A model generated the notes under the pieces. It did no database searches and was not told the origin of the DNA. It saw only the letters and a program-made list of their open reading frames with translations. A stretch of DNA of 64,000 nucleotides, taken from positions 62,001 to 126,000 of the forward strand of contig NZ_NRRD01000006.1 of the NCBI RefSeq assembly GCF_020023995.1, written 5' to 3'. Positions 3 through 44,450 of this stretch are shown piece after piece. The DNA is from Rhodobacter sp. TJ_12 (GTDB taxonomy: Bacteria; Pseudomonadota; Alphaproteobacteria; Rhodobacterales; Rhodobacteraceae). A program made the position numbers and the translations under genes. Numbering within the stretch: the first letter of the stretch is position 1; each line of letters begins with the position of its first letter.

Positions 3-806
3 GGCAATAGTCTGGTGACCTATACCCATTACGGCACCGGCAACTATCACCCGATCACGGCGCGGATTTACACCGATCTGAGCTTTTTCACCTGTGATGC
101 GAACCTTGGCCGCGATGCCACCAAGGTCTTCAATTTCCTGTCCGGCTATGTGCACCCCGAAGGACTTGAAAACCTTGCCATCTCGCCCTCGTCGCTCAAG
201 CCGCGGCTTTTGGAACTGATCGCCGCCGAGGCCGATCATGCCCGCGCCGGGCGTCCGGCGGAAATCTGGATCAAGGTCAATGCACTGATCGATTCCGATG
301 TGATCGATGCGCTTTATGCCGCCAGCCAAGCCGGGGTAAAAATCTCGCTGGTGGTGCGCGGCATTTGCGGCGTGCGCCCCGGTATCAAGGGGCTTAGCGA
401 AAATATCCGCGTCAAATCCATCGTCGGACGGTTCTTGGAACATTCGCGCATCATGTGCTTTGGCAATGGCGGGGGGCTGCCCTCGGACGAGGCACGGGTG
501 TTCTTTTCCTCGGCCGATTTGATGGGGCGCAACCTCACCCGACGCGTGGAAACGCTGGTCGAGGCCAAGAACGACACCGTCAAGGCGCAGATCGTCGGCC
601 AGATCATGGCGGCGAACATGGCCGATACCGCACAAAGTTGGGTGTTGGGCCCGGATGGGCGTTTCATCCGCGCCCTGCCCGAAGGCAAAGACCTATTTTC
701 GTGCCACAAGTTCTTCATGGACAACCCTTCGCTCTCGGGGCGTGGCACGGCGGGCGCAAAGGACGTGCCGGTGCTTGCCCATGGGCCCGAAGACAGGATA
801 GCGTGA
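3..806 (+). CDS. ppk1: Polyphosphate kinase 1, C-terminal part (5' truncated by window edge)
   Basis: Transfers the terminal phosphate of ATP to polyphosphate reversibly. The frame is open to the left edge, so the start and the N-terminal and head domains lie outside; about 268 residues of a family that is usually near 700 remain. Visible landmarks are [10 protein letters not shown] near the edge and GRFLEHSRI, which holds the histidine matching the second catalytic histidine of E. coli PPK1, followed by [12 protein letters not shown], a phospholipase-D-like fold segment. Exopolyphosphatase follows 36 nt downstream on the same strand, the usual synthesis-degradation pair. Identification is secure; its full length cannot be judged here. 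Confidence 0.95.
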
Positions 807-43511: not shown

Positions 43512-43600
43512 GGGTGTCCCCCTTTTCGCCTTCCTGCCTGCAACGGCCCGCCCCTGCAAGCAAGACGGCCCCTTGATCCGCGAAACACGCCAAAAATGAA

Positions 43601-43672
43601 AACGGCGGCGCCCAGGGAGGAGGAGGGGCGCCGCCGTTCAAAACCGCGGCCTCAGGGAGGAGGAGAGAGGCC
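43601..43672 (-). ncRNA. ccsR4: Cuckoo-type sRNA 4 (double hairpin, terminator)
   Basis: Hairpin A: GGCCTC/GAGGCC (43648-43653, 43667-43672). Hairpin B: a perfect 13-bp stem AACGGCGGCGCCC/GGGCGCCGCCGTT (43601-43613, 43626-43638), followed on the minus strand by TTCATTTTTGG, so this final hairpin is also the Rho-independent terminator of the whole transcript. Confidence 0.75.
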
Positions 43673-43687
43673 TTGGTATGTCCGGCA

Positions 43688-43748
43688 CCGCTCAAATGGG
43701 AGGAGAGCGGCACCATATCCCGCGCCCAGGGAGGAGGAGAGGACGCGG
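43688..43748 (-). ncRNA. ccsR3: Cuckoo-type sRNA 3 (double hairpin, one diverged loop)
   Basis: Hairpin A: CCGCGCCC/GGACGCGG (43720-43727, 43741-43748) with one mismatch. Hairpin B: CCGCTC/GAGCGG (43688-43693, 43705-43710) with an 11-nt loop aaatgggagga; the paired minus strand still reads CUCCUCCC across the loop edge. Confidence 0.68.
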
Positions 43749-43763
43749 TATCAGGTCGAAGGA

Positions 43764-43831
43764 GCGGCGGCCTCAGGGAGGAGGAGAGAGGCCGCCGCCT
43801 TCTTTACAAGCCCCAGGGAGGAGGAGGGGGC
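43764..43831 (-). ncRNA. ccsR2: Cuckoo-type sRNA 2 (double hairpin)
   Basis: Hairpin A: GCCCC/GGGGC (43810-43814, 43827-43831), the weakest stem in the array. Hairpin B: perfect 11-bp GCGGCGGCCTC/GAGGCCGCCGC (43764-43774, 43788-43798). Both loops keep CUCCUCCC. Confidence 0.72.
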
Positions 43832-43869
43832 CTGATACGATTCCGGCAGATGGGGCCGGTATAAGGTTT

Positions 43870-43938
43870 GGCGACACCCTCAGGGAGGAGGAGAGAGGGT
43901 GTCGCCGATCTCCGAGGCCAGGGAGGAGGAGAGGCCTC
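43870..43938 (-). ncRNA. ccsR1: Cuckoo-type sRNA 1 (double hairpin)
   Basis: First pair after the DUF1127 gene. Hairpin A: GAGGCC/GGCCTC (43914-43919, 43933-43938). Hairpin B: a perfect 12-bp stem GGCGACACCCTC/GAGGGTGTCGCC (43870-43881, 43895-43906). Both loops carry the CUCCUCCUCCCU sequence on the transcribed strand. Ends after processing are not visible. Confidence 0.75.
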
Positions 43939-43945
43939 AGGATGC

Positions 43946-44149
43946 TTATTTGCCGTAGGCTGCTTCCAGCGCGATGCGGGTCAGCATCGAGCGGTGCATG
44001 CCCAGATCACTCAATTCGCGTTCCGAAAGCGAGCGCAGTTCCGCCAGCGTTTGGCGGTAGACCTTGCGGCGCGCCAGCGCCTCACGCACGGTGGCAACGA
44101 TCTGGGCCATGCCCATATCGGAAGTGCGGATGTCGCTCACCAATGCCAT
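43946..44149 (-). CDS. ccaF1: DUF1127 protein, CcaF1-like, cotranscribed with the hairpin array
   Basis: 67 residues, basic, DUF1127: REALARRKVYRQTLAELRSLSERELSDLGMHRSMLTRIALEAAYGK, the family's arginine-rich helix pair. The start is the ATG giving MALVSDIRTSD; a 38-codon upstream run is rejected. In R. sphaeroides the equivalent CcaF1 is an RNA-binding protein that affects maturation of the downstream CcsR RNAs and general RNA turnover, and is stress induced. Same order here, with the array 7 nt downstream. Confidence 0.88.
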   Translation of the reverse strand: MALVSDIRTSDMGMAQIVATVREALARRKVYRQTLAELRSLSERELSDLGMHRSMLTRIALEAAYGK

Positions 44150-44450
44150 CGGTCGTCTCTTTCGTCTTTCAGCTTTGATACCATTGCGCGGTGGGCTCAG
44201 AATGTCTCTGTGGTTCACCGTCGCTGTTGGGGCTAACATGGGGGAATTGCTGCATCTGCACAATGGCGCTTAGAAGCAACGCCGCCTTGCGAAAAATGCA
44301 TAACGGATTCTGACCTGTTTCCGCCTTCAAACTGCGTTAATTCCAAAATTTGGCGCTCAAATTTTGCGCGAATCTTGCTTGGGGTGGCAAAGCCCCTTGC
44401 AGCGCGCGGCAAAAACGCCACAGTCGCGCGCAAATCGACAGGAGATTTTC
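44150..44450. promoter_or_regulatory. 301-nt divergent promoter region between ccaF1 and mrp
   Basis: No gene is seen. It is less GC-rich than its surroundings and must hold the ccaF1-ccsR promoter (RpoH-type in R. sphaeroides) and the mrp promoter. I could not identify -35/-10 boxes with confidence. CAGGAGA before the mrp ATG is a ribosome site. Confidence 0.4.

Follow-up and report, generated by a model that had tools for sequence, protein, structure and literature searches.

The ccaF1-ccsR hairpin cluster of Rhodobacter sp. TJ_12, and a solitary hairpin between phaP and phaR that may be of the cuckoo type

The cluster of eight hairpins in Rhodobacter sp. TJ_12 is an already described system in a further genome and an ordinary member of the published CcaF1-CcsR1-4 family, a verdict drawn from its match to the Rfam family CcsR1 (RF02791), the DUF1127 gene upstream of it, the hairpins behind that gene in 75 of 77 relatives and the CcsR1 matches in 163 of 198 genomes. 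It is almost certainly a ccaF1-ccsR operon of a Rhodobacter species, belonging to the cuckoo RNA family and to the CIN1 arrangement. What the cluster adds is a view of the features that are kept (loop, pairing, promoter-like element) against those that drift (arms, loop of the sixth hairpin). At a separate locus, the hairpin behind the phasin gene phaP may be a previously unreported single hairpin of the cuckoo type next to the gene of a carbon-storage regulator. Unless another locus is named, coordinates are those of the window, the whole 64,000-nucleotide stretch of DNA that was analysed.

Architecture of the cluster

On the minus strand, the interval 43600-43940 was read as a row of eight hairpins that form four pairs. 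Pair 1 consists of HP1 (43912-43940) and HP2 (43870-43906), pair 2 of HP3 (43807-43834) and HP4 (43763-43799), pair 3 of HP5 (43720-43748) and HP6 (43683-43715) and pair 4 of HP7 (43648-43672) and HP8 (43600-43639), all on the minus strand. Calculated from these coordinates, the gaps within pairs are 5, 7, 4 and 8 nt and those between pairs 35, 14 and 10 nt; the alternation of short and long spacing (5/35/7/14/4/10/8 nt) described in the first-pass annotation is therefore real. That annotation had also proposed four double-hairpin RNAs of 61-72 nt. The four pairs are present, with spans of 66-73 nt, and their transcription is presumptive. A U-rich run comes after HP8, which likely doubles as the transcript terminator; the terminator scan, which allows loops of 3-8 nt only, returned none, and the loop of HP8 has 12.

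Downstream of the cluster lies an RlmJ-type gene, with a divergent Mrp/ApbC-type ATPase gene on the other side. Between pairs 1 and 2 there is a small linker hairpin, CCGGC-CCCAUCU-GCCGG (43843-43859, minus strand), which has no anti-Shine-Dalgarno loop and whose five pairs are all invariant in six genomes and so show no covariation. A possible outer stem round pair 2 was noticed in GUAUCAGG before HP3 and CCUGAUAC after HP4 (43740-43845, minus strand); by eye, it carries one compensatory change in R. capsulatus and is broken in R. maris.

All eight hairpins have CUCCUCCC in common, and the full CCUCCUCCC is found in seven, the exception being HP6 with the altered loop UCCUCCCAUUU; the common loop claimed from the first inspection of the sequence thus holds for the shorter motif throughout and for the longer one outside HP6. 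Likewise, CTCCTCCC is present in eight of eight hairpins and CCTCCTCCC in seven. Within the 64 kb window CCTCCTCCC was found seven times, always in the cluster, compared with 0.44 occurrences expected, and none of 100 shuffles reached seven, which rules out chance repeats as the origin of the cluster. When the whole genome was searched for the paired pattern, 11 overlapping matches were obtained, all in the cluster, whereas the six matches of the backwards control were elsewhere or overlapping.

Folding and covariation

The predicted folding energy of the 351-nt stretch is -173.9 kcal/mol, against -122.4 kcal/mol (sd 4.9) for 100 shuffles, corresponding to a z-score of -10.5. Together with the sequence itself and the Pfam match of the preceding gene (PF06568, 46.3 bits), this bears out the initial description of eight minus-strand hairpins behind a DUF1127 gene.

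The cluster was aligned with its counterparts in five other Rhodobacter genomes, those of R. aestuarii, R. maris, R. viridis and two R. capsulatus strains. In this alignment of six genomes 93.2% of the cells are paired, and two-sided changes occur at 6 of 84 pairs (12 cells), one compensatory pair each in HP1, HP6 and HP7 and three in HP2, with none in HP3, HP4, HP5 or HP8. The covariation score of 0.135 compares with a shuffled mean of 0.102 and was reached by none of 500 shuffles, and slid versions of the structure gave 0.043-0.071; on the other hand, six or more two-sided pairs arise in 9 of 500 shuffles, and at least as many pair types as observed in 489 of 500. The stems vary and the fold is kept, which is what marks a cuckoo RNA or CcsR. 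It had been stated earlier that the arms covary, on the basis of differences among the hairpins of one cluster. Such differences are no test of covariation; the comparison between genomes agrees with the statement for HP1, HP2, HP6 and HP7 and lends it nothing for the other four hairpins.

Family assignment and distribution

A check against covariance models had been proposed in the first-pass annotation. Rfam CcsR1 (RF02791) exceeds its gathering score at pair 2 only, with 66.4 bits against 65.3 for a match (43759-43843) that contains both HP3 and HP4. Pairs 1 and 4 stay below the cut-off at 43.0 and 38.0 bits, and pair 3 gives a partial match of 17 bits. The family ar14 (RF02344) matches the cluster at 58.6 and 50.5 bits; both scores lie below the gathering threshold of 58.8, and membership of ar14/NfeR1 was rejected. 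CcsR1 and ar14 were the families that matched, with none named cuckoo among the Rfam matches; the cuckoo family was built with thermodynamic matchers (PMC4504443, partial text).

Matches to RF02791 were obtained in 31 of 61 relatives. Across the family 163 of 198 genomes gave one at E ≤0.001, 10 of 198 over the cut-off, compared with a single below-threshold match (Thermus composti) among 14 control genomes. When named loci were located through the DUF1127 protein, at least two chained hairpins stood behind the DUF1127 gene in 75 of 77, the two without hairpins there being L060 and L106. None of the 77 loci had two or more hairpins on the opposite strand there or within the upstream 1200 nt, and an opposite-strand RNA was rejected on that count. 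In one relative (L108, genome G091) 14 chained hairpins were seen, the last five pairs nearly identical; this cluster has apparently grown recently, in the manner of tandem duplication.

The closest known system is the CcaF1-CcsR1-4 locus of R. sphaeroides, described by Billenkamp (2015) and Gruetzner (2021), both as cited in PMC10253847 (partial text). Shared with it are a DUF1127 gene followed by four homologous RNAs, a presumed RpoH-type promoter region and a likely 3' terminator, and the CcsR1 model fits pair 2 with its two hairpins and CCUCCUCCC loops. The gene order, given in the first-pass annotation as matching this locus, is supported (PMC10253847, partial text). The TJ_12 cluster differs in its arm sequences, in reaching the cut-off at pair 2 only, in the altered loop of HP6 and in a DUF1127 protein of 67 residues versus a reported 71 in R. 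sphaeroides. Compared with the cuckoo CIN1 locus of Reinkensmeier and Giegerich (2015; via PMC4504443 and PMC10253847, partial texts), in whose available description the cuckoo motif has 2-4 hairpins, eight hairpins follow one another here in one run. The rhizobial alpha-r14/NfeR1 RNAs (RF02344) resemble the cluster in their hypervariable stems and anti-Shine-Dalgarno loops, consistent with the subthreshold matches, but have three hairpins and their own sigma-70 promoter, and the part of PMC7143759 available mentions no DUF1127 gene.

The DUF1127 gene and its upstream region

The counterpart of ccaF1 (43946..44149, minus strand) encodes a DUF1127 protein of 67 residues that is 87% identical to the proteins of Rhodobacter aestuarii, R. 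maris and R. viridis, and its stop codon lies 5 nt ahead of HP1 on the same strand. Four more DUF1127 matches exist in the genome (G000, at C9:93595, C1:154384, C13:44496 and C7:76348), with paired hairpins only at the window cluster.

Ahead of the gene is a conserved promoter-like element (44235..44263, minus strand) made up of TTGTGC (44258-44263), a 17-nt spacer and CATGTT (44235-44240). The pattern TTGTGC-16..18-CATNTT precedes 38 of 78 DUF1127 genes, against a mean of 0.05 in 20 shuffles; in this and the following counts of 78 upstream regions the start was set at the nearest in-frame ATG, which may be wrong in places. The CATNTT portion may correspond to an RpoH -10 box. For the R. sphaeroides CcaF1-CcsR operon, an RpoHI/RpoHII promoter has been reported (PMC10253847, partial text).

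Just behind the -35-like hexamer there is a TGC-rich dyad, TGCAGATGCA, with spacing N4 (44251..44260, minus strand); TTGTGCANNNGCAGCA occurs in 70 of the 78 upstream regions and in none of 20 shuffles. A distal TGC box, TCGCAAGGCGG (44282..44292, minus strand), is degenerate, and many relatives have CTGCNNNGCAG in its place. The exact CTGCNNNGCAG was found in 52 of 78 ccaF1 upstream regions (mean of 0.65 in 20 shuffles) and not at ccaF1 in the window's genome; it is the sequence bound by PhaR of R. sphaeroides (PMC12542648, partial text). Tandem TGC-rich dyads ahead of ccaF1 were observed both in the window (44251-44292) and in the upstream regions of loci L031-L107.

Avoidance of its own RNAs by the ccaF1 ribosome-binding site was considered and rejected: the longest match to GGGAGGAGGAG is at most 5 nt in 77 of 77 regions, one of the 78 having no ATG, but the same holds for 47 of 50 window genes, which were roughly called.

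Proposed function of the operon

By analogy with R. sphaeroides, an RpoH-type stress promoter would drive a single transcript comprising the DUF1127 gene, with the four double-hairpin RNAs behind it, and ending at HP8. Cuts by RNase E in the linkers would release the mRNA of ccaF1 and four RNAs that depend on Hfq; the CCUCCUCCC loops exposed on these RNAs would pair with the purine-rich ribosome-binding sites, or strong Shine-Dalgarno sequences, of selected mRNAs and lower translation, and the DUF1127 protein would bind RNA and tune maturation. For TJ_12 we infer transcription, processing, Hfq dependence and targets from the known CcsR biology of R. sphaeroides, including RNase E processing (PMC10253847, PMC8625941, PMC7866481 and PMC8307010, partial texts). 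There, CcsRs are reported to be Hfq-dependent, to be destabilised by PNPase and to have flhR as a target (PMC7866481 and PMC8307010, partial texts), and CcaF1 binds RNA and affects both CcsR maturation and other RNAs (PMC10253847, partial text).

The hairpins might instead be a general mimic of the anti-Shine-Dalgarno end of 16S rRNA that damps genes with a strong Shine-Dalgarno sequence at large under stress. Their loop is complementary to any strong Shine-Dalgarno sequence, GGGAGGA-N3..12-ATG has 64 matches in the genome against 3 in the backwards control, and one relative (L108) has as many as 14 chained hairpins. We nevertheless think such a mimic unlikely: in R. sphaeroides the CcsRs reportedly depend on Hfq and have flhR as a target (PMC8307010 and PMC7866481, partial texts), and long matches are rare, since 3 of the 50 window genes, which were roughly called, have one of at least 6 nt. 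Somewhat less probable again is that the DUF1127 protein is the main product, with the hairpins as a processing or stability module or as a sponge for that protein. Conservation of the loop while the arms vary fits pairing with RNA targets, and NfeR1, an ar14 RNA with a similar loop, silences mRNAs of S. meliloti from its own promoter (PMC7143759, partial text); both speak against a module or sponge, in spite of the RNA binding of CcaF1 with its effect on CcsR maturation (PMC10253847, partial text) and the occurrence of gene and hairpins together in 75 of 77 relatives. A REP-like DNA repeat element with no RNA function, suggested by repeated hairpins with a common loop, can practically be dismissed, given that in 75 of 77 relatives the hairpins stand behind one gene in a constant orientation (at least two hairpins on the other strand in 0 of 77), and given the compensatory changes and the paired pattern at one place in the genome. 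The assignment to the ccaF1-ccsR operon, with RNAs predicted to act on selected mRNAs, is the reading we retain.

A solitary hairpin between phaP and phaR

The genome contains CTCCTCCTCCC ten times, compared with two in the backwards control: seven copies in the cluster, one between phaP and phaR and two elsewhere. The copy between phaP and phaR belongs to a solitary hairpin, GUGUCCGGC-CUCCUCCUCCCU-GCCGGGCAC (locus L142, 1371-1400; G000:C20 near 40782), which stands behind the phasin gene phaP (L142, 901-1347; PF09361, 28.2 bits with a cut-off of 24.9) and is followed by an intrinsic terminator and then by phaR (L142, 1515-2069). The 91-nt piece behind phaP has a folding energy of -42 kcal/mol (z -5.8). 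No Rfam family matched the hairpin over its cut-off, ar14 scoring 30.3 of the 58.8 bits needed.

The Shine-Dalgarno sequence of phaR, GGGAGGAG, is the exact complement of the loop of the phaP hairpin. A search for this loop complement in the form GGGAGGAG-N3..12-ATG gave 17 matches in the genome and 0 in the backwards control. Ten of the 17 sites were read, in plus orientation only, and eight of those taken to Pfam; one is phaR, the regulator of polyhydroxybutyrate (PHB) (PF07879 and PF05233). Any anti-Shine-Dalgarno loop fits any strong Shine-Dalgarno sequence, and for this reason the match between loop and phaR is complementarity and no proof of targeting. Within the genus, the ribosome-binding site of phaR matches the loop complement over 7-8 nt in 15 of 16 loci, GGGAGGA-N3..12-ATG itself being found 64 times genome-wide.

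The phaR gene was found in 144 of 149 family genomes and in 18 of 18 genomes of the genus. In 16 of 17 readable genus loci a hairpin lies between phaP and phaR, 13 with CUCCUCC (CTCCTCC) wholly in the loop and three (L187-L189) holding only UCCUCC(C); locus L191 has no such hairpin and L192 is partial. The main PhaR clade has the hairpin in 50 of 71 loci read, in 32 of which the loop contains all of CTCCTCC, compared with 1 of 14 in a divergent clade, and outside the genus many loops between phaP and phaR are of the short form. These rates refer to 86 phaR loci sampled non-randomly (30 best-listed, 16 more from the genus, 20 next listed and 20 chosen, the last because strong CcsR1 matches were frequent among their genomes), and by batch the main-clade rates are 11/16, 14/15, 12/20 and 13/20. 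A hairpin with CUCCUCC or UCCUCCC occurs in 51 of 85 loci, counted from the start of the domain; ten rounds of shuffling gave 0-3 out of 85 each, and the antisense strand gave 8 out of 85. With ATG starts only, the figures become 37 of 61 versus 0 of 61 on the antisense strand, 25 of 86 loci being left out (24 where no ATG was found and one partial).

For covariation, 16 of 18 genus loci were aligned, leaving out L191 (no hairpin) and L192 (partial). The score of hairpin plus terminator, 0.271, exceeds those of all 500 shuffles and of the slid versions. The 22 two-sided changed cells fall mostly in the terminator (19, with three in the hairpin). The number of two-sided pairs is also reached by 118 of 500 shuffles, and in the hairpin the two outer pairs often fail.

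The 14 genomes with divergent PhaR (L147-L160; score <200), which have the phaR hairpin in one case, are all absent from the listed genomes with CcsR1 matches. The CcsR1 match and the phaR hairpin may come and go together.

A possible connection with PHB storage

It is conceivable, if somewhat doubtful, that hairpins of the cuckoo type take part in the control of bioplastic (PHB) storage, through an RNA from the phaP 3'-UTR that represses phaR and through further links between CcsR and PhaR. The solitary hairpin and its terminator would form a 3'-UTR RNA that represses translation of phaR via the GGGAGGA(G) Shine-Dalgarno sequence. As PHB titrates PhaR off the DNA, phaP mRNA would bring with it an RNA that keeps PhaR low, and because PhaR represses phaP, the two would make up a double-negative switch. 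The CcsR RNAs, having the same loop, could trip the phaR switch under stress. If this is true, a phasin mRNA regulates its own repressor and stress RNAs are linked with carbon storage. An RNA from the phaP-phaR hairpin is not reported in the mainly non-subscription literature searched, which included two reviews of PHA regulation and the available part of PMC8625941; a report may exist.

The reverse arm would run from PhaR to the CcsR operon, as hinted at by PhaR-like boxes ahead of ccaF1 in many relatives, and PhaR of S. meliloti represses the sRNA mmgR (PMC12542648, partial text). At the phaP promoters of the genus, exact CTGCNNNGCAG boxes were found in 15 of 15 readable cases (phaP was not found in one of 16 loci), 13 with a pair of boxes 28-29 nt apart; the N3 form is present in 15 of 15 and the N4 form in one. 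Of the two boxes upstream of ccaF1 in TJ_12, the proximal one is spaced N4, unlike the N3 of the phaP promoters, and the distal one is a degenerate version. Since the window has no exact CTGCNNNGCAG and its second element is spaced differently, we regard this arm as weak, and a site for another regulator would explain the boxes equally well.

As for the two copies of CTCCTCCTCCC elsewhere in the genome, the site at L193 has no hairpin on either strand read. A second solitary hairpin, CGCAGC-CUCCUCCUCCC-GCUGCG, was observed at L194 (minus strand, 1495-1517; G000:C1:418831), where it lies between two convergent genes, one of them pyruvate-kinase-like by sequence, and is followed by a U-run.
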